Origin: an uncultured Prevotellaceae bacterium
GTDB taxonomy: Bacteria > Bacteroidota > Bacteroidia > Bacteroidales > Bacteroidaceae
Direction of reading: 5' to 3'
Length of the DNA: 34,601 bases
NCBI GenBank assembly: GCA_900316355.1
Contig: ONCQ01000026.1
Coordinates: 1-34,601, forward strand
Shown: piece after piece, positions 3,681-18,331 of the stretch
How positions within the stretch are numbered: position 1 is the first letter of the stretch
How the letters are laid out: each line of letters starts with the position of its first letter
Notes under the pieces: model-generated
Databases searched by the model: none
What the model saw: only the letters and a program-made list of their open reading frames with translations
Told to the model about the DNA's origin: nothing
Translations under genes and position numbers: made by a program

Positions 3681-6600
3681 CTAAATAAAAGTCTCGGAAA
3701 TAATGATTTGCGGGTCGCTGACTTTGGGTACAGCCTTTTCCTGCATTTCGTTGCTCATGGTCTGGTACTCATCAATGAGTTCAGCTAACGTCCGTTTCAG
3801 CTTGGTTTCGTCTTCCTTGATTTGTACTTTATCGCCCTTGTAGGGCTTAGAGAGGTCACGCAAGCGACGGGGTAATTGGGTATATATACCTTTATTTATA
3901 TAGTCAGTAAGAATATGGCATTGCACCTTTGTTGTATTGTCCGATATCACTTGAGAAATCCTGCGAAGGAAGTTCAGAGCTGTCTTTGAGATGTTGTCAA
4001 GGTCTGTACGATTGATAGATGCATCATCGGCAGCCTCCACATATTCTGAGGTATATTTTTGCAAGGCACGGTTGACGTGGTCGTAGTTCTTACTGTCAGG
4101 GAGGAACGGAGCTGCCTGCTCTCCTGGCTTTGCCTTCAGATACTTGATGGCCTCCAGGAAATCGATAGGCTTTACAGTCTTATCGGTAGCGAGATAGAAT
4201 TCGGTCTTCACGTCGGATGAGACATAGACAATAGACTTGTCCGTATGTTTGCCTGTGCTGCGAGCCACGCGACTCTTCAACGGCAGTTGCTTCACCTTTT
4301 CGTATAGTTCGCGGTTGTTGTGAAAGACTTCACGCAGTTCACGTATCAAAGCTAACTTCTCGTCCATGCTGTCCTTCACATTACTATCGAACATCTGGAA
4401 TTGCTTGACGATTTCTTCCTTGGAATAAATCTGCACATCCTCTCCAAAAGCAGAGTGGAAGCCCTGCAACTTAATAAGGGCATTCTCGTAAAGCTGGATT
4501 TGTTCATTGCCTTGCGGGGATGGATAGAACATATAATTATATATGCACTCTGCTACAGAGCCAATACGATTTACACGTCCAATGCGCTGCATCAACCGAG
4601 AGGCATTCCAAGGGGAATCATAATTGACAATGATATGAGAACGATGCAGGTTGACACCTTCAGCCAACACATCAGAGGTGAGGATGATGTTGTATTGGTC
4701 TTTCTGTTCTTCGCTATTGGCATCGAAGTTTTCTTTGATGATCGTGGCTTTCTTGTCGCGATTGTCAGCAGTAATGGTCAATATGTCTTTCCTGCCCAAT
4801 TCAGTTTCTAATCGGCCTTTGAGATAATTAAGTGTATCAACACTTTCAGAGAATACCACCAACTTACCTGAAACGTTCCGGCTATCGAAGAATTCTGTTT
4901 CCAGCTTCTTACGGAATAGGTCATATTTCTGGTCATCGTGTTCTTTCTGCCAATCGGCATTCAAGGCTTCAAGTACCTGCTTGTCGTGGCGAAGCATTTC
5001 GATGAAATCAGGTTCGAAATCGTCAGACTGATAAAGAATATCGCTTTCCTGATAACCTTTCTTCATGGCCAGTTCAATAATCTGGTCCAGCTCCATACCT
5101 TTTGCCTGCAACTCTTTCACATTCAACTCTGGGGCAATGATGACCTTGTTTTCGGCAAACATCTTTAGCATGTCGTTGGTGATGCGAAGCAAGGTGGCCA
5201 AAGAAAGCTTGAAGGCATGGAAACTACTTTCCAGACGCTTTACCATGTGAACACGATAGATGCCTGCCAACGTCTGGCCAACATGAACGGCGTTACGATA
5301 CCTGGCGCGATATTCTGGCTTCAAGAATTCAACAGCACGATAGCGGGCATAATGCAAATGAGGATTGAATCCATCATCCGATAACACATTCAATGTGTAG
5401 AAGAAACGCTGACTGGTGTTAGCATCCATCTCGTATTCAAGTGAGATAGGGGGCTGAGGTTTTGGGAAAATAATACCTTGTGTCTGTAAGTCCTTCTTAT
5501 ACTCAGGGTCGTTCTCGATATTGTGGCGAGTACGGCGGACAGTGACTTTGTCGATAACCCTTTCACGAATTACCTCATAGATTCTATCTACATCTGCAGT
5601 CACATCTCGAGTCTCGCGCTCTTTCATCAATATTCTGTATTCCTTGATGTACTCTGCAAAGAACCCTTTTAGATTGGGTATGCCATCAATCGTACAGTTT
5701 TGACTGTCTTGGAATAACAAAAGAAGATTGAGCAAGTCGTCTGGACGGTTATTCAAAGGCGTCGCAGAAAGCAGCATCACTTTCTTACGTTGGTTCTTTA
5801 ACAAGCCTGCGTTTACGCAATCTGCCTTACAGATCTTCTGCAGTTCATCATACTTGCCTGCGCCATCATTGCGGAAGCCATGTGCCTCATCTACGATAAT
5901 CAAGTCAAACTCTTCCTTGGCCTTGTACTGCTCTTTCCCCTCCAGCACACTTGCAAGTTTCCCATTAGTAATGAACTGCGCTTTTCTGGAAATGCCAAAC
6001 ATCTTGAACGTATTTTCCCAGTTCTCGCGAAGAGCCGGAGGGAATACCACTAGAATGCTTGTGCTCTTGCCGTTCGCCTCTATGAACCGCTTGGCTATCA
6101 TGGTCGCTATCATCGTCTTGCCAAGACCCACCACGTCTGCAAGGAACAGGCCATTATGGCGCATCAACATTTGAAATCCTTGAATTACAGCATCCGTCTG
6201 GTATTTCAGTTCCATAACGCCATTGGGCAACTGAATGGAGAAATCATCCTCAATTTGATCACCAAAAGTGTCAATGAGTACCTTCAAATAGATTTCGTAT
6301 GGTGTAGGTTGATTACCTAAGTAGGTCTTTTGCTTGATGCTTTCGATATCCTCTAATGTCAGTGCAACGGCTTCTTCCCATAATTTCTTAAACTCAGAAT
6401 GACAGTAGTCCACATCATCGAAGTCCTTCATGGCTACATTCAACTCATATCGGGGTGACTGCGTTGTTCCAAGTCCAGAATCAGAGATGTTGGAGGAGCC
6501 CATGATAACCCAGCCGTCAGTATTCTCATTGTGGTTATGGGGAAGGCAAAGGTAGAACTTTGCATGAAGATTCTTGGTGGCATGAATCTTCATCTGGAGC

Positions 6601-6959
6601 CTGCCTTCTACGAGGTCTTGACACATCTGCAAGATGCCTTCCTCCACCTCTGGAGCATAACGTGCATTGACGATGTCTTGCCTGAACTCCTCGTCATAGA
6701 CGACTTTTGCTTTCTCGGCACTCTCCAACATGAGCATTGTCTTGTTGTGCCGACGGAAAATATCATCAATATTTATGCCCACCAAAATCTTAATCTCTTC
6801 TACGTTGCCCAACTCTTTGCGCAGTTTGAAATATCCGGAAGAACGGAAGAAGCCAACAACGGCTAGGAAACGGTCAAAGTTGGCCATGCCAGAAGCGATG
6901 CCCTTAAGCTTGTCAAAGAGGGTGTTGCCTGTATCGTTATTGAAAAATTTACTACTCAT
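3681..6959 (-). CDS. PLD-SNF2 helicase fusion, putative anti-phage defence protein
   Basis: A 1092-residue protein. The N-terminal ~200 residues form a phospholipase D-like domain with one visible HKD-type half-site (HAK at 132-134, then GSSNIS at 154-159). A superfamily 2 SNF2-type helicase follows: Walker A VGLGKT (277-282), DEAH (357-360), motif III SATP (398-401), motif V LAEGVN (765-770) and motif VI QRIGRVNRIG (791-800). The last ~290 residues are unassigned. Such proteins use ATP to move along DNA, and the PLD domain could act as nuclease or only bind DNA. With an adenine methyltransferase and a PDDEXK nuclease behind it, a restriction-like role is likely. DISARM has the same activities on separate proteins, but I see no DrmB, so I do not call this DISARM. 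It is the first gene of its operon, with an ATG at 6959 and a long leader. Confidence 0.85.
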   Translation of the reverse strand: MSSKFFNNDTGNTLFDKLKGIASGMANFDRFLAVVGFFRSSGYFKLRKELGNVEEIKILVGINIDDIFRRHNKTMLMLESAEKAKVVYDEEFRQDIVNARYAPEVEEGILQMCQDLVEGRLQMKIHATKNLHAKFYLCLPHNHNENTDGWVIMGSSNISDSGLGTTQSPRYELNVAMKDFDDVDYCHSEFKKLWEEAVALTLEDIESIKQKTYLGNQPTPYEIYLKVLIDTFGDQIEDDFSIQLPNGVMELKYQTDAVIQGFQMLMRHNGLFLADVVGLGKTMIATMIAKRFIEANGKSTSILVVFPPALRENWENTFKMFGISRKAQFITNGKLASVLEGKEQYKAKEEFDLIIVDEAHGFRNDGAGKYDELQKICKADCVNAGLLKNQRKKVMLLSATPLNNRPDDLLNLLLLFQDSQNCTIDGIPNLKGFFAEYIKEYRILMKERETRDVTADVDRIYEVIRERVIDKVTVRRTRHNIENDPEYKKDLQTQGIIFPKPQPPISLEYEMDANTSQRFFYTLNVLSDDGFNPHLHYARYRAVEFLKPEYRARYRNAVHVGQTLAGIYRVHMVKRLESSFHAFKLSLATLLRITNDMLKMFAENKVIIAPELNVKELQAKGMELDQIIELAMKKGYQESDILYQSDDFEPDFIEMLRHDKQVLEALNADWQKEHDDQKYDLFRKKLETEFFDSRNVSGKLVVFSESVDTLNYLKGRLETELGRKDILTITADNRDKKATIIKENFDANSEEQKDQYNIILTSDVLAEGVNLHRSHIIVNYDSPWNASRLMQRIGRVNRIGSVAECIYNYMFYPSPQGNEQIQLYENALIKLQGFHSAFGEDVQIYSKEEIVKQFQMFDSNVKDSMDEKLALIRELREVFHNNRELYEKVKQLPLKSRVARSTGKHTDKSIVYVSSDVKTEFYLATDKTVKPIDFLEAIKYLKAKPGEQAAPFLPDSKNYDHVNRALQKYTSEYVEAADDASINRTDLDNISKTALNFLRRISQVISDNTTKVQCHILTDYINKGIYTQLPRRLRDLSKPYKGDKVQIKEDETKLKRTLAELIDEYQTMSNEMQEKAVPKVSDPQIIISETFI

Positions 6960-7277: not shown

Positions 7278-7348
7278 CACAATTAGGTGAAAAGTGAAAA
7301 ATAAAAGCACGGAAAATTGCGGAAAGGAACGGAAATACGCGGAAAGGA

Positions 7349-7380
7349 AACGCTCCGCTATCGTGGGACAGCGGAGCGTT
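7349..7380 (-). terminator. Stem-loop terminator after nqrF
   Basis: Perfect 11-bp inverted repeat (AACGCTCCGCT / AGCGGAGCGTT) with a 10-nt loop, 20 bp beyond the nqrF stop. No strong U tract follows on the minus strand, so termination is inferred from position and stem strength. It also separates nqr from the defence-operon promoter. Confidence 0.65.
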
Positions 7381-7400
7381 GGTTTGAGGGTTGGCTGGTA

Positions 7401-8690
7401 TTAACCGCCAAAGTTATCGAAGCGGATCATGTCGTCTTCGACGCCGAGGCTGTGCAGGAGGTCGAGGACGGTCTTGGCCATCATTGGAGGACCGCAGAGG
7501 TAGTACTCACAGTCTTCGGGTGCCTCATGAGCCTTGAGGTAGGTGTCGCCCATGACGGGAGCCACGAAGCCCGGGGTGTACTTGATTCCAACTGCATCGG
7601 CCTTGGGATCGGGACGGTCGAGAGCGAGGTGGAAGTGGAAGTTGGGGAAGTCCTTCTCGAGCTGCAGGAAGTCGTCGAGGAAAGGAATCTCCTCCAGCGC
7701 ACGGGCACCATAGAAGTAGTGCATGGGGCGCTTGCGGTCTTCCTCCTTCACGCCGTGGCCCTTGAGCATGTGCATGATCTGAGCACGCAGGGGAGCCATA
7801 CCGGCACCACCGCCGACCCAAATCATCTCGCGGCCTGTGCCGTACTGCGGACGGAACTCACCGTAAGGGCCACTCATGATGACCTTGTCACCGGGTTTGA
7901 GGCTGAAGATGTACGAAGAGGCAATACCCGGGTTGACATCCATGAAGCCGGGACCCTGATCCTTCGGCTTGAAGGGAGGCGTGGCGATACGGACGTTGAG
8001 GGTGATGATGTCGCCCTCGTCGGGGTAGTTAGCCATGGAGTAAGCACGGATGGTGGGTTCGGGGTTCTTACACTTGAGCGGGAAAAGACCGAACTTCTCC
8101 CATGCGGGCAGATAGGTGTCGCCGATGAGGGACTTGTCGAAGTCCTTGTCGTAGTCGATGCAGTCGAAAGCGGGAATCTTGATCTGAGCGTAGGAGCCGG
8201 GCTCGAAGTCCATGTGCTCGCCAGCAGGCAGAGCCACCTTGTACTCCTTGATGAACGTTGCCACGTTCTTGTTGCCGATAACGGTGCACTCCCACTCCTT
8301 GACGCCGAGGACGCTGTCGGGCACTTTGATGCCGAGGTCGCCCTTGACCTTGCACTGGCAGCCGAGGCGCCAGTGGTCCTTCTGTTCCTTACGGGTGAAG
8401 TGTCCCTTCTCAGAGTCAAGAATCTCACCGCCACCTTCTACGACCTGACATTTGCACTGGCCGCAGGAACCCTTACCACCACAGGCTGAGGGGAGATAGA
8501 CACCTTCAGCGGCGAGGGTGGAGAGCAGGCTGGCACCCTGGGGCACGGACAGCGTGTCCTTGCCATTCATTGTAATCGTGACATTACCACTCGGCGAGAG
8601 GTATGCCTTTGCTACAAGCAGAATGATGACCAGCGCGATGATAATCACGAGGAAGACCACAATGCTTGTGAGAATTAATGATGTATTCAT
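7401..8690 (-). CDS. nqrF: Na+-translocating NADH:quinone reductase subunit F
   Basis: NADH-oxidising entry subunit of the Na+-NQR complex, 429 residues, typical length. It has an N-terminal membrane anchor (about residues 5-27) and a plant-type 2Fe-2S ferredoxin domain with ligands Cys70, Cys76, Cys79 and Cys111. The FAD-binding motif RAYS is at 215-218, and the NADH-binding part has GGGAGMAP at 293-300 and CGPPMM near the C-terminus. Electrons pass from NADH to FAD to 2Fe-2S and on to the membrane subunits. It is the last gene of nqrABCDEF and is separated from nqrE by 161 bp holding a pair of inverted GC-rich hairpin elements, unlike the near-zero gap between nqrD and nqrE. Those hairpins might lower its expression relative to the upstream genes. 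Confidence 0.97.
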   Translation of the reverse strand: MNTSLILTSIVVFLVIIIALVIILLVAKAYLSPSGNVTITMNGKDTLSVPQGASLLSTLAAEGVYLPSACGGKGSCGQCKCQVVEGGGEILDSEKGHFTRKEQKDHWRLGCQCKVKGDLGIKVPDSVLGVKEWECTVIGNKNVATFIKEYKVALPAGEHMDFEPGSYAQIKIPAFDCIDYDKDFDKSLIGDTYLPAWEKFGLFPLKCKNPEPTIRAYSMANYPDEGDIITLNVRIATPPFKPKDQGPGFMDVNPGIASSYIFSLKPGDKVIMSGPYGEFRPQYGTGREMIWVGGGAGMAPLRAQIMHMLKGHGVKEEDRKRPMHYFYGARALEEIPFLDDFLQLEKDFPNFHFHLALDRPDPKADAVGIKYTPGFVAPVMGDTYLKAHEAPEDCEYYLCGPPMMAKTVLDLLHSLGVEDDMIRFDNFGG

Positions 8691-8697
8691 AATTGAA

Positions 8698-8849
8698 GAC
8701 CCACCCCCTTACCCCTCCCGTTAGGGAGGGGAGCGGCTAGCGCTTGGAAGTTTATAGGGTCATTCTTTTAATGATTAATGATTAGACTTTGTTTAACGTA
8801 ACACCCCGCAGGCTCTCCCCTCCCTTACGGGAGGGGTCGGGGGTGGGTC
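8698..8849. repeat. Inverted pair of GC-rich hairpin elements (BIME/REP-like)
   Basis: Element A (8698-8733) and element B (8811-8849) are inverted copies of each other. Each begins or ends with GACCCACCCCC and contains a perfect 8-bp hairpin CCCCTCCC/GGGAGGGG with a 4-nt loop (8712-8731 and 8817-8836). About 78 bp lie between them. Element B ends 2 bp from the nqrE stop and element A begins 7 bp upstream of the nqrF ATG. The arrangement resembles paired REP elements of other bacteria. Confidence 0.8.
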
Positions 8850-8851
8850 TG

Positions 8852-9478
8852 TTAGAGATTTAATCCGCTGAAGCACATGAAGGCCATAGCCATCAGGCCG
8901 ACGGTGATGAACGTAATGCCGAGACCCTGCAGGGGCTTGGGCACATCGGTGTAGGCCATCTTCTCGCGAATGGCTGCCAGGCAGGTGATAGCCAACAGCC
9001 AGCCGATACCGGAACCGAGGGCGTAGGCCACAGCATCCCAGATGCCGGTGATGGCCTGGGAGTTGGTGTCGGGCATAGTGATGCGCTGCTGCATGAACAG
9101 CGAGGCACCCATGATGGCGCAGTTCACAGCAATCAGGGGAAGGAAGATACCGAGGGCGGCATACAGCGAGGGGCTGAAGCGCTCGACAATCATCTCCACC
9201 AGCTGCACGATAGCGGCAATCACGGCGATGAAGAGGATGAACGACAGGAAGCTCAGGTCAACGCCCTCCACCAAACAGTTGGGGCCAAGGACATAAACTT
9301 GCAACAGGTAGTCAACGGGCACGGTGATGAGCAGCACGAAGGTGACTGCCACGCCGAGTCCGAGGGCGGTCTTCACAGTCTTGGACACGGCCAGATAGGA
9401 GCACATACCCAGGAAGAACGCGAAAATCATATTGTCCACAAAGATGGAGCGGACGAATAGGCTTAATAGATGTTCCAT
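8852..9478 (-). CDS. nqrE: Na+-translocating NADH:quinone reductase subunit E
   Basis: Integral membrane subunit of Na+-NQR, 208 residues with about six hydrophobic segments. Conserved cysteines sit at Cys26 ([10 protein letters not shown]) and Cys120 ([10 protein letters not shown]), the residues which with those of NqrD bind the iron centre inside the membrane that carries electrons from the NqrF 2Fe-2S cluster to FMN on NqrC. It starts 2 bp after the nqrD stop, which implies translational coupling. The fold is the same as NqrD and the RnfA/RnfE pair. Rnf is excluded because the operon carries nqrA and a ferredoxin-flavin NqrF. Confidence 0.97.
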
Positions 9479-9480
9479 AA

Positions 9481-10104
9481 TTACTGAAGGTCTTTATTAT
9501 ATGCTCTGTGTGCCCAGATGACGCAGCCGACGAGGATCAGGGACATCGCGGGCATGGTCATCATACCATTGTTCACATAACCGTGGTCATAGCACCACTG
9601 CGGAACAACCTGGAAGCCGAGCAGTGTGCCGGCGCCGAGGAGTTCACGGAAGAAGCCTACGATGACGAGGATAATGGCGTAGCCAATGCCGTTGCCAATA
9701 CCATCGAGGAAAGAAGGCCAGGGCTTGTTCATCATAGCAAAAGCCTCGAGGCGACCCATGAGGATACAGTTGGTGATGATCAGACCGACATAGACGGAGA
9801 GCTGCACGCTGACGTCATAGGCAAAGGCCTTCAGCACCTGGCTGACGATGGTCACCAGCGCAGCGACAACCACCAGCTGCACGATGATACGGATGCGGTT
9901 GGGGATGGAGTTGCGGATGAGAGAGATAATCAAGTTGGAGAAGGCGGTGATGATGGTCACGGAAAGACCCATCACGATGGCAGGCTCGAGCTGAGCCGTC
10001 ACAGCCAAGGCCGAGCAGATACCGAGCACCTGCACCACCACGGGGTTGTTCAAGTTCAGCGGACTGATCAGTGCCTCCTTATTTGCTTTGGATAATAATG
10101 CCAT
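9481..10104 (-). CDS. nqrD: Na+-translocating NADH:quinone reductase subunit D
   Basis: Integral membrane subunit, 207 residues, paralogous to NqrE. Cys30 (GICSAL) and Cys113 (TNCILMGR) match the iron-ligand positions of the family. The many hydrophobic helices and the NGIGY loop are typical. The gene lies between nqrC (34-bp gap) and nqrE (2-bp gap). The ATG at 10104 gives the usual family N-terminus. No anomalies seen. Confidence 0.97.
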
Positions 10105-10138
10105 AACTTTCTATAGTTTTAGGTTGAAAGTTTCTTGT

Positions 10139-11137
10139 TTATTGTTCCTTGTCTAAGTCTGCATTCTTGACACAAGCACAGGAACACTCTTCTTTTGCAC
10201 AGCATTGTGCATCAGAAGCGCAGTTGCAGGCTGCATCACCACAGCTGCCATCCTGACATGCACAACCACGCTTGGTAGCGCAGACACATTCGGGCTTGTC
10301 GCAGCACTTGGTCTCGCTCTGGCTGCATGCATCAGCAGGGTTCGCAGCAGCACCAAATGCATCTACATACTGCTGGATACCGCTGAGCACCATTTCGCCA
10401 ACACCCTTGGAGGTGAGGGTTGCACCGGTGACGCCGTCAATCTGAGTCTCGGCTTCACTGGCACCTTTCTTCACAACGGTGAGGGCCACCTTGCCATCAG
10501 CGCCCATCACAGGATGACCGATGAACTGGCTCTGGAACTTCTCCTCCTTGATGAGGGCACCGAGACCGGCGGTCTCGCTCTCATGGTCGAAGTAAGCACC
10601 GAGGACCTTCTGGAAGTCGGGTGTAACGGCTACATAACCCCAGAGGCCACCCCAAAGGCCGCGACCTTTCAAGGGCAGGACAAGGGCTTCGTCGCCAGCG
10701 GCGGTCTTAGCCTTATAGACAGGGAACTTCTCGCCAATCTCCTTGGTCTCGACCTCGAAGGCACCGCCTTCGGTGACCTGACCGTCGGGCGTGACGACAC
10801 ATGTCTCCTGAATCAATTCGTCGAACTTCGCTTCCACGTCGCTCTTGGCGATGCCGCGAACGTTGAGGGAAGCAAGAATCTGTTTCTTCTTATCGATAGC
10901 CACGTTGGCATCCTGAGCAGGCTTCAGCGCGCTGCTGACAAAGGCCAACAGGAAGGCTACGAGCACCACCATTACGGCTGCATAGCAGATGGTATAGACA
11001 TTGCCGTTGGTGTTAATGCCCTTTGACTTCACCTCGGAGAGATGTGAAGTGTCAGCGCCGCAGATAGGGCACTTGTCGGGCATGGATGCGGCCTCAAAGG
11101 TCTGACCGCACTGACTGCATATAAATTTCTTTGCCAT
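10139..11137 (-). CDS. nqrC: Na+-translocating NADH:quinone reductase subunit C with extra zinc-ribbon and Cys-rich tail
   Basis: NqrC carries covalent FMN and passes electrons to NqrB. The core is clear: one membrane helix (about residues 48-70), then the soluble FMN-binding domain with the flavinylation motif DGVTGAT, which makes Thr240 the likely FMN site. At 332 residues it is far longer than a usual NqrC. Residues 1-30 add a rubredoxin-like or zinc-ribbon module with ligands Cys7, Cys10, Cys23 and Cys26. Residues 270-332 add a hydrophilic tail with 15 cysteines (271, 278, 279, 284, 286, 292, 294, 299, 304, 306, 312, 313, 318, 320, 322), which looks like a metallothionein. From the known NqrC topology the N-terminal module should be cytoplasmic and the tail on the periplasmic side. 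The role of either addition is unknown. The same frame runs through all parts without a break. Confidence 0.93.
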   Translation of the reverse strand: MAKKFICSQCGQTFEAASMPDKCPICGADTSHLSEVKSKGINTNGNVYTICYAAVMVVLVAFLLAFVSSALKPAQDANVAIDKKKQILASLNVRGIAKSDVEAKFDELIQETCVVTPDGQVTEGGAFEVETKEIGEKFPVYKAKTAAGDEALVLPLKGRGLWGGLWGYVAVTPDFQKVLGAYFDHESETAGLGALIKEEKFQSQFIGHPVMGADGKVALTVVKKGASEAETQIDGVTGATLTSKGVGEMVLSGIQQYVDAFGAAANPADACSQSETKCCDKPECVCATKRGCACQDGSCGDAACNCASDAQCCAKEECSCACVKNADLDKEQ

Positions 11138-11213
11138 AATCTAATTTGACGATTTTACGATTTACGATTTTACGATTTACTTTTCATTTGTACAATTGTA
11201 AATTGTCCAATTG
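11138..11213. repeat. AT-rich repeat spacer between nqrB and nqrC
   Basis: The 76-bp gap holds direct copies of ACGATTTTACGATTTA and an ACAATTGTAAATTGT-type inverted repeat. The nqrA-nqrB gap carries closely similar words (ACAATTGTCCAATTGT, TTACGATTTAACAATTTAC). It is non-coding and no promoter box is evident. Confidence 0.65.
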
Positions 11214-12380
11214 TCAAATCTTTGCACGCTTGGCGCGACGGCTGATGTTACGGCTGACGAAGCAGTAGTCGATGAGCGGAGCAAAGAGGTTCATGAGCAG
11301 GATGGCAAGCATCATACCCTCGGGGTAACCGGGGTTGAGCACACGTACTGTGACGGCCACGAAGCCAATGAGGAAACCATAGATCCACTTACCGCCTTCC
11401 GTGCGGGCAGAGGTGACAGGATCGGTAGCCATGAAGACGGCACCGAAGCAGAAGCCACCGAGCACGAGGTGCTGCACAGCATCGAGGGGCGAGAGGCCGA
11501 GGGCGTTGTAGAGCCAACCCGTGCAGGCACCGCCTACGAACACGCTGAGCATGGTCTTCCAGCTGGCAACGCCAGTCCACAGCAGCAGACAGGCGCCAAG
11601 GGCAATGGCAATGACGCTGGTCTCGCCGATGGAACCGGGGATGAGACCGATGATCTGGTCGCTGAGAGAGGTGCTGAGGGCACTGGCGCCGGCGGCAATC
11701 TCACCCAACGGGGTTGCAGCTGAGAACGTGTCGGGCACATCGAAACCGAGGCCCCAGATAGCGTTCTGAGCCACCCAGACGGAGTCGTCGCCCGTCATGC
11801 TGGAGGGATAAGAGAAGAATAGGAACGCGCGCGTGATAAGGGCGACGTTGAAGATGTTCATACCTGTGCCACCGAAAATCTCCTTGGCGAAGATGACGGA
11901 GAAGGCCACGGCGATGGCGAGCATCCACAGCGGCGTGTTCACGGGGACAATCATCGGGATGATGATACCCGAGACGAGGAAGCCTTCCTGGATTTCCTCG
12001 TTCTTCCACTGCGCAACGGTGAACTCAATGCCGAGGCCGACCACATAGCTGACAATCAGCTTGGGCAGCACGGCCAGGAAACCAAACCAGAACATGCCCC
12101 AGAAGGTGGCATTCTCCAGTTGACCGGCAGCGAGCGCATTCTGATAACCTACGTTATACATTCCGAAGAGCAACGCAGGCACAAGCGCGATGACAACGAG
12201 CGACATGATGCGCTTGCTGTCGATGGCATCGTGGATGTGTGTTCCGCCTACGCGCGCCGTGGTGTTGGGCACGAAGGCAAACGTCTCGAAGCCATCATAA
12301 AGCGAACGGAAGGCGTGGAGCTTGCCACCCTCCTCGAAGTTCGGCTTTATTTTGTCGAAAAATTTTCTTATTGCATTCAT
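11214..12380 (-). CDS. nqrB: Na+-translocating NADH:quinone reductase subunit B
   Basis: Large membrane subunit, 388 residues, typical length. It contains the flavinylation motif DTFSAAT, so Thr223 is the expected covalent FMN attachment site. About ten hydrophobic segments follow the cytosolic N-terminus. In the studied enzyme NqrB also binds riboflavin, takes part in Na+ passage and holds the quinone site near its N-terminal part. FMN attachment on NqrB and NqrC needs an ApbE-type transferase, which is not in this window. It is second in the operon, after nqrA and a 98-bp repeat-rich gap. Confidence 0.97.
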   Translation of the reverse strand: MNAIRKFFDKIKPNFEEGGKLHAFRSLYDGFETFAFVPNTTARVGGTHIHDAIDSKRIMSLVVIALVPALLFGMYNVGYQNALAAGQLENATFWGMFWFGFLAVLPKLIVSYVVGLGIEFTVAQWKNEEIQEGFLVSGIIIPMIVPVNTPLWMLAIAVAFSVIFAKEIFGGTGMNIFNVALITRAFLFFSYPSSMTGDDSVWVAQNAIWGLGFDVPDTFSAATPLGEIAAGASALSTSLSDQIIGLIPGSIGETSVIAIALGACLLLWTGVASWKTMLSVFVGGACTGWLYNALGLSPLDAVQHLVLGGFCFGAVFMATDPVTSARTEGGKWIYGFLIGFVAVTVRVLNPGYPEGMMLAILLMNLFAPLIDYCFVSRNISRRAKRAKI

Positions 12381-12478
12381 AATGTAATCTTACGATTTAA
12401 CAATTTACAATTTTACAATTGGGCTGCGCCTTTTGGGAACAGACAATTGTCCAATTGTAAATCGTCCAATTGTCCAAT
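12381..12478. repeat. AT-rich repeat spacer between nqrA and nqrB
   Basis: 98 bp of low-complexity sequence with CAATTGTCCAATTGTAAAT and CAATTGTCCAATTTA repeats, related to the nqrB-nqrC gap. It can form AATTG/CAATT hairpins. No gene or promoter box was found. Confidence 0.6.
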
Positions 12479-13807
12479 TTATGCGTTCTCTTTTCTAAGG
12501 ATATCCAATCCCTCACGCACAATGCGTTGCAATTCAAGTTTTGAACTATCCACGAACTCGGCAATGGCGAAATCCTCGGGAGCCACCTCGTAGATGCCGA
12601 GGGCTTCCTGACGGTCGATGTCACCGGCGATGATAGCCTTCACAAGATAGCCGGCATAGATGTCCATGGGGAACACACGGTCGTATTCACCCGACATGAT
12701 CATGTGGCGCTCGCCACCCTTGATGCGGGCATCCAGCTCGTATTCGGCCTTCTTAGGACGCAGCCAGCTGAAATAGCTGCGGCTGGTGCTGAACTCCTTG
12801 AAGCGGGGAGCAATCCAACCGAGCATCTCATAGACATCGTCACCCTCGGGAATCACAGTGACCTCCGTGGCATGAGCTGCAAGCCAGCCTTCCTTGGAGG
12901 TCTTTACGCCCACCATGGGGTTGCCGTTGATGATGCGCAGGCTCTTGCTTTCGTCGATCTGTCCGGCGAGGATAGATTTGATGGGCTGTCCCACGAGCGT
13001 CTTGGCGTACTTGGGAGCCTTCACCTCGGAACCGGCGACGGCGATGGTGCGAGTGAAGTCCACCTTACCTGTCAGCACCAGACGGCCGATGAAGATGACT
13101 TCCTCAGCGCCCAGCGTCCACACGACTTCGCCCTTGTTGATGGGATCAACGTGGTTGATCTGAACGCCCACGTTGCCTGCAGGAGCAGGACCGTCGAACA
13201 CGGTGATGGTGCAGTCCTTGGCAGCGGTCAGCGCCTGCGCCTTCTGTTGCTTGCTGATGCCGAGGTTCACCTTGGCAATCTTAGCCAGCAAAGAGAGACC
13301 TGCCTGCCACTCCTTCTCCTGTCCCTGCAGGACATACTCGAAGTCAGCAGCCAGTGGCATTGAGTTGAACGCGCTCACGAAGATAGCCTTGGGCTTGTCC
13401 TCGGGATTCGCCACCACGTCGTAAGGACGCATCCGGAAGAACCCGAACAATCCGCTTTCGAGCAGAAGCTTCAGCGGCTCCTTCTCTGTGAAGGAGGCTG
13501 CCGTCTGCTTGCCGTCGGCATCTACGCGCACGCTCATCACCTTACGGCGTTCTCCGCGCTCCACGAGGGCGACAGTGCCGCTGACAGGCGAAACGAACTT
13601 CACTTCGGGATGTCTCTTGTCCACAAACAAGGCATCCCCGACCTTGACAGCATCCCCTTCCTTGACAACGACCTTGGGTTTCATGCCACAGAAATCATCG
13701 GGGACCAGCGCATACTGGCCCTCGACCTTCGTCTGCATGGTTTCCAAGTTCGCTTTGCCCTTCAGGTTTACGTCGAGGCCTTTGCGTAACTTGATTACAT
13801 TTGCCAT
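12479..13807 (-). CDS. nqrA: Na+-translocating NADH:quinone reductase subunit A
   Basis: Cytosolic subunit of Na+-NQR, 442 residues, normal length. The N-terminus (KLRKGLDVNLKG) and the early lipoyl/barrel-sandwich-like stretch (VVVKEGDAVKVGDALFVDK, then VSPVSGTV) are family signatures. NqrA contributes to the quinone-reducing end of the complex together with NqrB. It is the first gene of the operon. The ATG at 13807 is supported by the conserved N-terminus and by a -7 box about 40 bp upstream. It is divergent from the tamB-like gene. Confidence 0.97.
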   Translation of the reverse strand: MANVIKLRKGLDVNLKGKANLETMQTKVEGQYALVPDDFCGMKPKVVVKEGDAVKVGDALFVDKRHPEVKFVSPVSGTVALVERGERRKVMSVRVDADGKQTAASFTEKEPLKLLLESGLFGFFRMRPYDVVANPEDKPKAIFVSAFNSMPLAADFEYVLQGQEKEWQAGLSLLAKIAKVNLGISKQQKAQALTAAKDCTITVFDGPAPAGNVGVQINHVDPINKGEVVWTLGAEEVIFIGRLVLTGKVDFTRTIAVAGSEVKAPKYAKTLVGQPIKSILAGQIDESKSLRIINGNPMVGVKTSKEGWLAAHATEVTVIPEGDDVYEMLGWIAPRFKEFSTSRSYFSWLRPKKAEYELDARIKGGERHMIMSGEYDRVFPMDIYAGYLVKAIIAGDIDRQEALGIYEVAPEDFAIAEFVDSSKLELQRIVREGLDILRKENA

Positions 13808-13848
13808 ATAAAATAAGTATGAATAAATGGTTTTAGCTAAAAACTGCG

Positions 13849-13856
13849 CAAAATTA
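13849..13856 (-). promoter_or_regulatory. nqrA: Promoter -7 box of the nqr operon
   Basis: On the minus strand this reads TAATTTTG, an exact TAnnTTTG box. The -33 position is poor (TGCG). The transcript would start near 13842 and give a leader of about 35 nt before the nqrA ATG. Confidence 0.5.
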
Positions 13857-13896
13857 AAGAAAAAACGTCAATCATCACGCATAAACGTCCAACTAT

Positions 13897-13928
13897 TTTG
13901 CCTAAGAAGCAAAAAAACACTACTTTTG
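13897..13928 (+). promoter_or_regulatory. Full Bacteroidetes promoter at the 5' end of the tamB-like gene
   Basis: TTTG (13897-13900), 20 bp, then TACTTTTG (13921-13928): both boxes match the TTTG-N19-21-TAnnTTTG consensus. Transcription would start near 13935, which is downstream of the TTG at 13898 that opens the longest reading frame. Confidence 0.55.
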
Positions 13929-16900
13929 CTCTCACAAATCAGGAAAGAACCATCAAAAGGCTCAGCTATATCATTCGATTTGTGGTAGCACTCATCCTCG
14001 TCTGCTACCTCGGATTACTACTCTTCACGGCAATGCCAGCATGTCAGCGCTGGTTAGCCGCGAAGTCTTCTGTGATGCTGTCTCAGGAGCTGCAGACAGA
14101 GGTCAGCATCGGCAACGCACGCATTGGACTCCTGAACCGCATCGTGCTGGATGATGTGCTGCTTCATGACCAACAGGGCGACACGCTCGTGAGTGCCACG
14201 CGCCTGAGCAGCAAGCTGGACATCTGGCAACTCCTCAACGGCCGCATCCACATCGCCAACGTACAACTCTTCGGCTATGACATCCGAGTGCATCGCACGG
14301 ACTCACTCTCACCATATAACTTCCAATTCCTCGTTGATTATTTCGCCACCGAGGACACCACCACTACCCCACTCGACCTGGCCATCAACAGCATCCTCAT
14401 CCGACGGGGTAACATCACTCACGACATCGACAGCGAACCCTACAAGGACCACTTCACCCCTGCCCACATGAAGTTGGAAGACCTTAACATAAAGGCTCAA
14501 ATCAATACTCTCACCAACGACAGTATATCTCTGGCTATTAAAGAACTACGGTTCAAGGAGTCACACAGCGGTTTCATCCTTGAGGACCTTTCCGCACAGT
14601 TATCTGGCACCCCGCAGCACGCACTCTTGACACATCTCATCCTACGTCTGCCACACTCTCAAATAGAGATTCCTTCGCTATCTTTGGATGGCGAACTCAC
14701 CTCGTGGCAGGAGAACCATAGCCGCCTCCTACTGCGAGGCGATGTCACGCCTGCCGACTTCTCCGCCTTTGCTGCTGTCCTGCACTCATTCCAATCGCCT
14801 TTGCACATCGATATCCACGCCGAGAAGCAGGCCCGATGGTTGCATCTTCAGTCCCTATCCATGGATGCTGAGGGCTTGGACCTTCAGCTACGGGCCTACG
14901 GCATGTTACATCCCAGCGACAGTAGCGCGCAGGCTTTTGACCAACTGCAGGTCACGCTGCAACAACTTCAGCTGAAACCGGCCTTCACACAGCCACTCCT
15001 TCAAACGTTAAGCAGCACCCAGCCGCAACCGATTATCCCAGCTGAAACAGCTGCGATGATTGGTCGCTTAGGCGATGTCAGCATAATGGGCGAATGGGCA
15101 GGAAATGGCAGCCAGGATGTGATGACAGCACACCTTCAAGCGCAAACAACTCTTGGCAGCATCAAGGCTGACGGTCACATGACGGCCCATGACCGCTTCA
15201 AGGCCCAGGTGCAGACGACGGGCTTCAAACTAGCTTCGCTACTGACAGCCGATGCCTCATTCCCGCTCAATGACCTCACACTCGACGGGGATTTCGACGG
15301 CAGCATCCGCCAGCGTTCCGCAAAAGGCAGCGCCCAGCTGAGGAACTTCCTTGTCAAGGATACACGTCTCGACTTCCTCACTACGCAGTTCGACATCTCA
15401 CCACATGCGCTGCGCAGCCACACTGAACTCGCTGACAACGAGTACAGCCTGCAGCTGACCACAGACCTGCAAACGCCGAATGAATGGAAGCTGAACATGG
15501 CTTCCTTGGAGGACATACAAGGCCGTATAGGGTTGGACAACGTGCGCGTACTGCATGATGACGAGACCTACGAGTTGAAACAGTTGCAGATCTCCACGAC
15601 CAACGACGACCACGGACATCACCTCCTGCTCAGCGGCGATTTCATCGACGCCCATGCCGATGGTCAGTTCAGCTATGCCAACCTGGCTCCGGCCGTGCAA
15701 CAGCTCCTGCACCAATCGCTCCCCTCGCTTATCGCTGCACCTGTATTGGGCAATGTAGCCTCCGAAGAGAAACTGAATTTCTCCGTCAACCTCTGGAACA
15801 CCACACAGTTGCTTCAGCTTGCCGGCATCGACATGTCACTCCCCCAGCCAGGGTATATCGAGGGGGAACTGAACGTGGCATCCAATGCCTTCTCCATGAT
15901 GGCTGACTTCCCGCACATCATCTACGGCAACGAAGAGATGCGCGCCGTGAGTATGCTGGCACGTCAGGAGCGCGACAGCCTCACCTCCTTCGTCACACTA
16001 CAACGTATGATGGAAAGCGGTCCCATGGATCTCTCCGTGCTGGCCGAGGGCGGCCACGACAGGCTTCGCTCCACCCTCGCCTGGGACGACCACAACGAAC
16101 CCTCGCAGCGAGGTGAGCTCTCAGCTATCGCCTCATTCTTCAAGGATGAGAAAGAACAGCTGGGCGCCGACATTCACTTCCAGCCCACCAGCATCATCGT
16201 CTCTGACACTATCTGGGACGTGCATGAGTCACGGGTGCGCTACCACGACAACATCGTGGATGTGAGTGGTTTCCAGGTGTCACAGGCTGGGCGTCACCTG
16301 CGCGTGGACGGTCGTGTGTCCCGCAATGCTGCCGACACCCTCTATGCCGACCTGCGCGGCATCAACCTACAGTATATCTTCGGTATCATCGACTTTCATG
16401 ATGTGGAGTTCGAGGGCGAAGCCACCGGTGGCGTGAAGATTCATGACATCTATGAGAACATCGCCGTGGATGCTAACCTGCGCGTCGATGACCTCAAGCT
16501 CAACGGCGGTCTGTTGGGCGAGGCACACGTCATGGGCGGCTTCGGCCGCAAGGACGATCGAGCCATCGACCTCGACATCTATGTGCGTGAACCCGTCCGC
16601 AATGAGATAAGCCACATCTTCGGCATCGTGAAACCGGGGCATGAGCCGGGACGCGGCATGGACCTGAACATTCAGGCGCGCTACCTGAACATTTACTTCC
16701 TGAATTTCTTCACCGAGGGTATCTTTGACAACCTGCAAGGTCGAGCCTCCGGCTACGCATACCTCCACGGTCCCTTCAAGCAGCTCGACCTTGAAGGAGG
16801 TCTGGCGTTGGACACCCTCGACGTGGGCATCCCTGTCCTTGGCACACGCTACCACACCCTTGGCGGCGACAGCATCCGCCTCTACCCCGGAGGCATCAGC

Positions 16901-18331
16901 ATCACCGACGCCCATCTCTATGATCGCCACCACGGCAACGACAACCGTCGCCACGAAGCCGTCCTTGACGGTGTCCTGAGTTTCGAACATTTCAAGAACC
17001 TGCGCTACGCCTTCGACATCGAGGCGCACGATTTCCTGGGCTACGACTTCCGCGACTTTGGCGATCAGACATTCTACGGCACCGTCTTCGCCGATGGCAA
17101 CGTAAACCTGTCCGGACGACCTGGCGAACTGAACGTTGAGATCCAGTGCACGCCCACTCAAGGCACCGTGTTCACCTACAATGTATCCTCACCAGAGACG
17201 CTGACAGAAAATGAGTTCATCACCTATAAGGAGAAAAACCACCTGGCCCCCCTTTCGCCCCCCGAGGGTGGCACTGATGCTCAATCCAATACTGATGATG
17301 GTAATGTAGCCCCCTCGGGGGCAGAAGAGGGGGCCACTTCTGACGAGCCCACCGATATGCGCATTAACTTCGACCTCAACATCACCCCTGCGGCTCAGAT
17401 GCGCCTGCTGATGGATGCCAAGTCCGAAGACTATATCGACTTATACGGCGATGCCCACATGCGCGCAGACTTCTATAATAAAGGCCACTTCCAGATGTAT
17501 GGCACCTACCGCGTAGATCATGGCACCTACCGCCTCTCGCTGCAAGATGTCATCCGCAAGGAATTCCGCTTCCAACAGGGCAGCACCATCGTTTTTGGCG
17601 GCGACCCCATGAAAGGCAGTCTCAACCTGCAGGCCATCTACACCGTGCCCAGCGTATCGCTTAACGACCTGGCTGTGGGCAACAATTTCTCCAGCAGCAA
17701 TGTCCGTGTGAACTGTCTGATGAACATTGGCGGCAGTCCCTCGCAGCCACAGGTGACCTTCGACTTCGACATCCCCAATGTCAACGAGGACGAGAAGCAG
17801 ATGGTGCGCTCGCTCATCTCCACCGAGGAGGAACGTAATATGCAGGTCATCTATCTGCTCGGTATCGGCCGTTTCTACACGCAGGATCTCTCGGCAGGTC
17901 AGAGTCAGACCAATGCCGCCATGCAGAGTCTCCTCTCCTCCACGATCTCCGGTCAACTGAACAACCTCCTCGGCTCAGTCATCGGCAACAACAACTGGAA
18001 CTTCGGCACCAGCCTCTCCACAGGCACGCAAGGATGGAACGAGGTCGATGTCGAGGGTATGCTCAGCGGCCGCCTCCTCAACAACCGGCTCCTCATCAAC
18101 GGCACCTTCGGCTATCGCGACACGCCCATCGCCAACACTAACTTCATCGGCGACTTCGACGTGCAATGGCTCCTCACCCCCAACGGCGGCATCAGCCTCA
18201 AAGCTTACAGCGAAACCAACGACCGTTACTTCACCAAGACAGCCCTTACCACTCAAGGTATCGGCATCCAGGTGAAGAAGGATTTCAATACACTGCGCGA
18301 GCTCTTCCGCTTCCGCAGGCGTAAGCAATAA
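13898..18331 (+). CDS. TamB-like translocation/assembly module protein
   Basis: A very large protein (up to 1477 residues) with one N-terminal membrane helix (about residues 25-47), a long beta-rich body of repeated short strands, and a C-terminal TamB (DUF490) domain over roughly the last 350 residues. TamB/AsmA-like proteins span the periplasm as a hydrophobic groove and serve outer-membrane lipid transport or protein insertion. The start is uncertain: no ATG precedes the membrane helix. The longest frame begins at TTG 13898, but a consensus promoter (13897-13928) predicts transcription from about 13935, so translation may begin at a non-ATG codon near 13950, shortly after AGGAAAG. Odd feature: an in-frame insert (about residues 1116-1146) is encoded by an inverted pair of GC-rich elements. 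It ends 13 bp from the convergent clpC stop. Confidence 0.85.
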   Translation: MPKKQKNTTFALTNQERTIKRLSYIIRFVVALILVCYLGLLLFTAMPACQRWLAAKSSVMLSQELQTEVSIGNARIGLLNRIVLDDVLLHDQQGDTLVSATRLSSKLDIWQLLNGRIHIANVQLFGYDIRVHRTDSLSPYNFQFLVDYFATEDTTTTPLDLAINSILIRRGNITHDIDSEPYKDHFTPAHMKLEDLNIKAQINTLTNDSISLAIKELRFKESHSGFILEDLSAQLSGTPQHALLTHLILRLPHSQIEIPSLSLDGELTSWQENHSRLLLRGDVTPADFSAFAAVLHSFQSPLHIDIHAEKQARWLHLQSLSMDAEGLDLQLRAYGMLHPSDSSAQAFDQLQVTLQQLQLKPAFTQPLLQTLSSTQPQPIIPAETAAMIGRLGDVSIMGEWAGNGSQDVMTAHLQAQTTLGSIKADGHMTAHDRFKAQVQTTGFKLASLLTADASFPLNDLTLDGDFDGSIRQRSAKGSAQLRNFLVKDTRLDFLTTQFDISPHALRSHTELADNEYSLQLTTDLQTPNEWKLNMASLEDIQGRIGLDNVRVLHDDETYELKQLQISTTNDDHGHHLLLSGDFIDAHADGQFSYANLAPAVQQLLHQSLPSLIAAPVLGNVASEEKLNFSVNLWNTTQLLQLAGIDMSLPQPGYIEGELNVASNAFSMMADFPHIIYGNEEMRAVSMLARQERDSLTSFVTLQRMMESGPMDLSVLAEGGHDRLRSTLAWDDHNEPSQRGELSAIASFFKDEKEQLGADIHFQPTSIIVSDTIWDVHESRVRYHDNIVDVSGFQVSQAGRHLRVDGRVSRNAADTLYADLRGINLQYIFGIIDFHDVEFEGEATGGVKIHDIYENIAVDANLRVDDLKLNGGLLGEAHVMGGFGRKDDRAIDLDIYVREPVRNEISHIFGIVKPGHEPGRGMDLNIQARYLNIYFLNFFTEGIFDNLQGRASGYAYLHGPFKQLDLEGGLALDTLDVGIPVLGTRYHTLGGDSIRLYPGGISITDAHLYDRHHGNDNRRHEAVLDGVLSFEHFKNLRYAFDIEAHDFLGYDFRDFGDQTFYGTVFADGNVNLSGRPGELNVEIQCTPTQGTVFTYNVSSPETLTENEFITYKEKNHLAPLSPPEGGTDAQSNTDDGNVAPSGAEEGATSDEPTDMRINFDLNITPAAQMRLLMDAKSEDYIDLYGDAHMRADFYNKGHFQMYGTYRVDHGTYRLSLQDVIRKEFRFQQGSTIVFGGDPMKGSLNLQAIYTVPSVSLNDLAVGNNFSSSNVRVNCLMNIGGSPSQPQVTFDFDIPNVNEDEKQMVRSLISTEEERNMQVIYLLGIGRFYTQDLSAGQSQTNAAMQSLLSSTISGQLNNLLGSVIGNNNWNFGTSLSTGTQGWNEVDVEGMLSGRLLNNRLLINGTFGYRDTPIANTNFIGDFDVQWLLTPNGGISLKAYSETNDRYFTKTALTTQGIGIQVKKDFNTLRELFRFRRRKQ
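17245..17335. repeat. Inverted GC-rich element pair inserted in frame in the tamB-like gene
   Basis: 17245-17272 and 17309-17335 are imperfect inverted copies (GGCCCCC, a variable 6-7 nt, CCCCCGAGGG-GGC). The 36 bp between them encode a polar Asn/Asp/Thr-rich linker. The arrangement matches the element pair between nqrE and nqrF, but here it is translated. Confidence 0.75.

Follow-up and report, generated by a model that had tools for sequence, protein, structure and literature searches.

The NqrC subunit encoded in the window (the whole stretch of 34,601 nucleotides of DNA from an uncultured Prevotellaceae bacterium that was analyzed here) carries a rubredoxin-like head at its N-terminus and a cysteine-rich tail at its C-terminus. 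The tail is no accident, as it is kept throughout the clade of closely related proteins to which this NqrC belongs (clade A). The operon around its gene codes for a complete Na+-translocating NADH:quinone oxidoreductase (Na+-NQR), in which the protein serves as subunit C; it is equipped with two independent accessory modules. In rumen Prevotella, Na+-NQR is described as a main NADH-oxidizing pump (PMC6560451), and the complex is common in the order, with an NqrC match in 163 of 198 sampled genomes. The named relatives of the host are gut Prevotellaceae/Bacteroidaceae, many of them of ruminant origin.

Architecture of the NqrC subunit

By ORF reading of the window, the minus strand forms a single open frame of 332 amino acids at 10139-11137, and frame 1 of the plus strand is interrupted by stops over the same positions. 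The frame lies in a complete nqrABCDEF operon, in which every subunit exceeds its curated TIGR cut-off (Table 1). NqrC itself was identified by TIGR01938 (165.1 bits, cut-off 144), with more closely bounded NqrC models staying under their cut-offs (e.g. NF003750, 220 bits vs 352), and by the Pfam domain FMN_bind at residues 160-252 (56.3 bits, cut-off 22). The core contains the flavinylation motif DGVTGATLTS, whose Thr240 (codon at 10418-10420) is invariant across 75 aligned NqrC sequences. NqrC structures were also the top Foldseek matches, including 3lwx of Parabacteroides distasonis (E 1.2e-17, 38% identity, TM 0.88 by target). Thus, the preliminary description of this DNA, which had placed both additions in one frame around an intact NqrC core, was right on this point.

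A structure prediction, which the same description had called for, gave a mean pLDDT of 86 for the 332-residue protein (AF2), with high confidence for head and core and a poor model of the tail. A helix was predicted at residues 46-90, where a hydrophobic stretch is also visible in the sequence. NqrC of Vibrio cholerae is periplasmic with one transmembrane helix (PMC10643135). Homology with this topology places head and tail on opposite sides of the membrane, in support of the two-sided arrangement proposed earlier.

Table 1. Features of the nqr operon and of the NqrC protein in the window
Feature	Position	Strand	Basis
nqrA	12479..13807	-	TIGR01936 458.6 bits, cut-off 321.05
nqrB	11214..12380	-	TIGR01937 449.9 bits, cut-off 349.9
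nqrC, 332 aa: head, transmembrane helix, FMN-binding core and Cys-rich tail	10139..11137	-	ORF, Pfam, TIGR01938, AF2
Rubredoxin-like head, residues 1-38, Cys 7, 10, 23, 26	11024..11137	-	RUBY_RBDX; AF2; Foldseek (weak)
Single transmembrane helix, about residues 46-68, ends estimated	10934..11002	-	Predicted helix, hydrophobicity, V. cholerae homology
Periplasmic NqrC core, residues 70-260	10358..10930	-	FMN_bind; invariant Thr240; Foldseek 3lwx
Cys-rich C-terminal tail, residues 261-332 (72 aa), 15 Cys	10142..10357	-	Sequence; falling pLDDT
nqrD	9481..10104	-	TIGR01939 302.0 bits, cut-off 244.85
nqrE	8852..9478	-	TIGR01940 289.8 bits, cut-off 247.55
nqrF	7401..8690	-	TIGR01941 528.5 bits, cut-off 295

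The operon is bordered by a TamB-family gene (13898-18331, plus strand) and a PLD/SNF2-type helicase gene (3681-6959, minus strand) with no evident link to it. The gap between nqrB and nqrC (11138-11213) holds two short AT-rich tandem repeats with the units ATTTACGATTTTACG and TTGTACAATTGTCAAA.

All 15 cysteines of the tail fall within the 52 residues from 271 to 322, so that the count given earlier stands, while the span is shorter than the approximately 60 residues stated then (no strand had been given). Most of them are grouped as CC or CxC, mostly with 5-6 residues between the groups. Along the tail, which ends in DKEQ, the block pLDDT drops from 79 to 38. We scanned 654 kb of the organism's own genome (about 21% of it, including the window) for cysteine density, taking the longest ORFs of at least 80 amino acids as crude gene calls. 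Among these 542 calls NqrC has the most cysteines per 60 residues, namely 15; the next value is 8, and no other call exceeds it. A query with the tail against the own genome (E up to 10) matched NqrC alone, and as the scan of about 21% of this genome added just one FKBP-type protein, the idea of a tail shared with other proteins was discarded within this scope. This second most cysteine-dense call (L314:1881-2468) belongs to the FKBP-type prolyl isomerases (PF00254, 27.9 bits) and has a SlyD-like C-terminal tail rich in Gly and Cys; its fold class is known for metal-binding tails in other bacteria (SlyD, PMC7055735). Tandem Repeats Finder reported no repeat in the cysteine-coding part (10172-10327) and one weak row touching the last bases of the gene. 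A repeat artefact in the tail DNA was rejected on this ground.

Conservation and distribution of the tail

In the genus sample, 122 of 139 genomes (the own one included) gave an NqrC match, counted as one place per genome, and 118 of the proteins are complete. The final genus tallies exclude four partial or frameshifted places (L097, L175, L176 and L184), and L097 is also missing from the tail-selection, the 75-sequence alignment and the head silent-change analyses. In one assembled genome (G111, L060/L097), NqrC is split across two frames before the tail, which is either a real split or an assembly error.

Clade A comprises 33 NqrCs including that of the window and has a local support of 100 in the FastTree core tree. 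Each of its 33 complete members has a Cys-rich tail, with 7-45 cysteines (median 29) and at least 15 in 29 of them. An end module with the consensus CKSGNDCCKSGxCDKSGSCGKPGCDGDKACC is found in 27 of the 33 tails and is absent from the window's protein. In the alignment it occupies columns 521-563, and its eight cysteine columns hold Cys in all 28 rows that reach there; the conservation count from a separate 26-row set is partly circular, as these rows were picked for holding part of the module. The tail of the window is therefore a short form of one that is longer in most of clade A, and it probably arose by loss of the end.

Across the 33 sequences, the 30 Cys-dominated tail columns are 96.8% conserved compared to 72.4% for the 111 other tail columns, in an alignment that may have been guided by the cysteines themselves. 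In 29 of the 30 Cys columns TGC occurs beside TGT, that is, the codons were exchanged silently. At a silent divergence of 0.45-0.70, the median dN/dS is 0.157 for the tail vs 0.081 for the core, and the two lower bins gave 0.153 and 0.113 vs 0.019 and 0.074; the tail values are rough because its silent sites are near saturation (pS ~0.61). Taken together, dN/dS and the conservation of the Cys columns point to a tail that changes more quickly than the core and yet is under constraint, the cysteines most of all.

Outside clade A the picture is patchy. At least 4 tail cysteines are present in 25 of the 85 other complete genus members and at least 10 in 10 of them, and 38 have no tail. With fewer than 4 tail cysteines in 60 of these 85 proteins, the tail must be dispensable for pumping. 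The Cys tails of these relatives consist of unrelated units such as KKCADCTKECKDG, GQGQC, HEGCP or PMAGCPKED; other relatives are tailless or have an acidic tail. A VEQ-like C-terminus (TDVEQ, TNVEQ, EDVKQ; a loose pattern) closes 38 of the 47 non-clade-A tails longer than 10 residues, many of them acidic, and is possibly the ancestral tail end to which cysteines were added. In the family sample, 228 of 249 genomes matched (same-genus genomes included), and among 74 NqrCs chosen from 18 other genera, 13 have at least 3 tail cysteines and 8, from three genera, at least 4. The best 29 loci of the order sample besides the window include two of the same family, and none of the other 27 NqrCs has a Cys tail. 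The least number of changes by parsimony on the core tree (192 rows) is 11 for tails with at least 10 cysteines and 21 for those with at least 4; these counts are rough, with 61 of 186 forks open, and do not separate gain from loss. Altogether, judged from the sequences, unrelated Cys-rich tails seem to have appeared on NqrC several times. The comparison of NqrCs suggested in the preliminary description thus finds the head common in the family and the tail universal in clade A.

This distribution has to be weighed against the idea that such tails are tolerated low-complexity growth, in which an exposed C-terminus grows by slippage and short duplications and Cys-rich units are by-products of little function. 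Evident repeats in some relatives (KAEGCA, HEGCQK and KKCADCTKECKDG units) and the great variation in tail length, down to tailless and acidic-tailed proteins, would fit. We nevertheless regard it as unlikely: the Cys columns are 97% conserved despite silent codon exchange, the tail dN/dS is ~0.16, the end module never departs from Cys in its eight columns, unrelated sequences converge on a similar composition, and the cysteine-coding tail of the window itself is free of tandem repeats. Likewise, a tail that varies randomly like a decaying repeat, which had been named earlier as a refuting outcome, is not what clade A displays: length and filler vary much and the Cys positions are kept.

The rubredoxin-like head

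The four N-terminal cysteines were correctly described before as CxxC pairs (C7/C10 and C23/C26). They lie in a match to the Pfam domain RUBY_RBDX at residues 6-31 (34.7 bits, cut-off 26.5), and the block pLDDT over residues 1-40 is 82-97. Foldseek matched the head to rubrerythrin 1b71 with a probability of 1.00 but a weak E of 0.079 over 41 columns. By sequence, zinc fingers of the PDB score best, followed more weakly by rubredoxins and rubrerythrins. Heads alone matched a further set of loci (L085-L094), of which the two that were looked at, L085 and L086, are reverse rubrerythrins with the rubredoxin domain first, sharing MPDKCPICG with the head of the window. The own genome encodes one reverse rubrerythrin (L002). 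On sequence grounds, the head resembles the N-terminal rubredoxin domain of reverse rubrerythrin.

For the survey, heads were scored by the pattern CxxC-x9-15-CxxC, and since the pattern defines the head, invariance of its cysteines would be a circular statement. A head is present in 23 of the 33 clade-A members, in 50 of the 85 other complete genus members, in 46 of the 74 sampled family NqrCs (9 of 18 other genera) and in one of the 27 NqrCs outside the family among the best 29 loci of the order sample. Every combination of head and tail, present or absent, occurs among the 118 complete genus NqrCs, and the head is therefore independent of the tail. Its presence requires at least 28 changes on the core tree by parsimony, and among very similar cores some have a head (L104 and L186) and another lacks it (L144).

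The DNA of the head is unusually similar between groups. In codons of shared amino acids, a comparison of the 23 clade-A members that have a head with 24 genus members of the same head type outside the clade, the latter picked by their first residues, gives silent differences of 26% in the head and 48-62% in the rest of the gene, including the adjoining linker. Within these two groups the values are 23% vs 33-40% elsewhere and 16% vs 40-52%. In a third genus group (n = 26) there is little dip (40% vs 41-57%), and outside the genus it is small in g16 and g18 and clear in genus g20 (head 0.24 vs core 0.44). As silent change in the head is far below that of the rest of the gene, these sequence comparisons suggest that the head spreads by exchange as a DNA cassette; a constraint on the head DNA is possible as well. 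Two sources of such a constraint were considered and found wanting. A general codon constraint at the 5' end is not strong in headless genes, whose first 42 columns gave 0.51 and 0.39, and an Rfam search of 7300-14000, judged by gathering scores, yielded no structured RNA.

Proposed function and comparison with known systems

The tails have a characteristic composition, with 15-22% Cys, much Lys, Gly, Glu and Ala and nearly no aromatic residues, and this was arrived at from unrelated sequences. In clade A, Cys makes up 21.6% and His ~2%, and aromatics past tail residue 12 occur in two of the 33 tails. Cysteine pairs in the pooled clade-A tails, compared to shuffles, are rare at distances 2 (122 vs 180), 3 (CxxC, 65 vs 178) and 4 (31 vs 177) and frequent at distance 6 (355 vs 175). 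No Pfam family matched any of 8 tails at E 1, and a PDB sequence search with one tail had no match. AF2 found no confident fold for the tail, neither in the window's protein nor in 26 tails, for which the overall pLDDT was 40.7 and most blocks of the end module reached 48-55. Membership in a metallothionein family was rejected on the missing Pfam (8 tails) and PDB (one tail) matches and on the pooled clade-A spacing, which is not metallothionein-like, and a knottin-like fold on the low AF2 confidence.

Based on this analysis, we propose a metal-binding thiolate tail that is disordered and periplasmic, works in the manner of those of SlyD and HspA and shields a soft-metal-sensitive pump, with the head as an independent module; we give this reading about an even chance of being correct. 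The tail would extend into the periplasm, disordered while ligand-free, and take up soft metals (Cu(I), Zn(II), Ag(I)-like) via its CC and CxC pairs as putative thiolate ligands. Tethered to the moving, flavin-carrying NqrC, it would work as a local metal sponge and keep such metals off the exposed Fe-S and flavin sites of the pump. The silver site of the complex, which we take to be located in the cytoplasmic NqrF, sets a limit here, because a periplasmic shield would then give no direct protection. Towards one soft metal, silver, NQR shows unusual sensitivity. In membranes of Prevotella bryantii, NADH:quinone activity is half-inhibited at ~0.75 μM AgNO3, while NDH-I and NDH-II are said to be unaffected by silver (PMC6560451). 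A metal-binding tail on NqrC would also lie near the docking spot at the [2Fe-2S] cluster of NqrD-E, which, once reduced, opens to the periplasm where NqrC docks (PMC10643135).

The head would sit on the cytoplasmic side, close to NqrF. It may be a site for Fe or for Zn, between which the sequence cannot tell, and it could tap electrons from NqrF. In a bolder version, Na+-NQR of gut Prevotellaceae relatives would be a metal-armoured, branched pump that combines recurrent metallothionein-like periplasmic tails of unrelated sequence with an exchangeable cytoplasmic rubredoxin cassette letting NqrF feed an acceptor path for peroxide or oxygen defence; this we consider rather improbable.

Alternatively, the tail might act as a redox fuse. 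Its thiols would be reduced in the anoxic gut, and oxidants would drive disulfides within the tail or to NqrB or NqrD, locking NqrC and switching the pump off reversibly. The tail is indeed carried by the moving subunit: NqrC moves back and forth between NqrD-E and NqrB, and locking it by engineered disulfides impairs electron transfer and growth, with reduction of the bonds said to have a restoring effect (PMC10643135). A few well-placed cysteines would suffice for such a lock, however, instead of 29-45, and the variable filler and length do not suggest defined docking, so that we consider a fuse unlikely.

Small disulfide-bonded periplasmic domains, for instance a knottin-like end module serving stability or protein contact, are a still less probable explanation. 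The high conservation of the end module, its presence in most clade-A tails, the strong cysteine spacing of 6 and the periplasmic location speak for them. On the other side stand the low AF2 confidence, also over the end module, the lack of PDB or Pfam matches, and the window's own protein, which does without this module. Furthermore, the cysteine total is odd in 21 of the 33 clade-A tails, which argues against simple complete disulfide pairing; the parity argument fails outside clade A, where, of the 25 genus tails with 4 or more cysteines, 15 have even totals and 10 odd ones.

Fe-S clusters are assembled in the cytoplasm, for which a periplasmic tail would lie on the wrong side, and the depletion of CxxC, the usual spacing of Fe-S and rubredoxin sites, argues against a site of either type in clade-A tails. 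A store of iron or Fe-S that serves to mature NQR or to buffer electrons, along the lines of the preliminary description, is accordingly very unlikely, even though Fe-S clusters are required in NqrD-E and NqrF (PMC10739449) and a rubredoxin-like head lies across the membrane.

Under the metal-binding reading, the tail would connect respiration to metal stress in a way open to experiment, and pumps of closely similar core with and without tail or head within one genus offer a natural experiment. In the NqrC and Na+-NQR literature, we found no mention of a Cys-rich tail or a rubredoxin-like head on NqrC in the accessible parts of the papers covered, including PMC10739449, PMC6560451, PMC12174285, PMC4014512 and PMC10643135; subscription literature lay largely outside this scope.

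With NqrC of V. cholerae, P. distasonis (3lwx) and P. bryantii, the protein shares the core fold, the single transmembrane helix, the FMN-Thr motif and the operon. It differs from P. bryantii NqrC, whose 210 amino acids leave no room for a head or a tail (PMC6560451). The head has its counterpart in the N-terminal rubredoxin domain (RUBY_RBDX) of reverse rubrerythrin; in contrast to that protein, NqrC lacks a ferritin-like diiron domain, and its head is fused to a transmembrane subunit.

Metallothioneins contain ~20% Cys in CC and CxC pairs, are rich in Lys and almost free of aromatics, and are unfolded without ligand. The tail is similar in its high Cys content, CC/CxC pairs, Lys, few aromatics and lack of a predicted fold. 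Unlike metallothioneins, it is fused to a respiratory subunit and without a family match, and the overall cysteine spacing has its maximum at 6, not at 2-3.

SlyD and HspA, the closest functional models for the proposed metal-binding tail, are cytoplasmic proteins. In E. coli SlyD, metals are bound by an unstructured C-terminal tail with many His, Cys, Asp and Glu residues, which varies among SlyDs (PMC7055735), and the His/Cys-rich extension of the GroES protein HspA of Helicobacter pylori binds nickel in vitro, its deletion raising nickel sensitivity (PMC3856676). The likeness lies in a conserved housekeeping protein with a predicted-disordered, lineage-variable, ligand-rich C-terminal extension. 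In contrast to these extensions, which are rich in both His and Cys, the NqrC tail of clade A has up to 45 Cys and ~2% His, and it belongs to a membrane electron-transfer subunit and is periplasmic by homology. If the tail binds metal, a respiratory pump would join a folding catalyst (SlyD) and a co-chaperonin (HspA) among the proteins with such tails.
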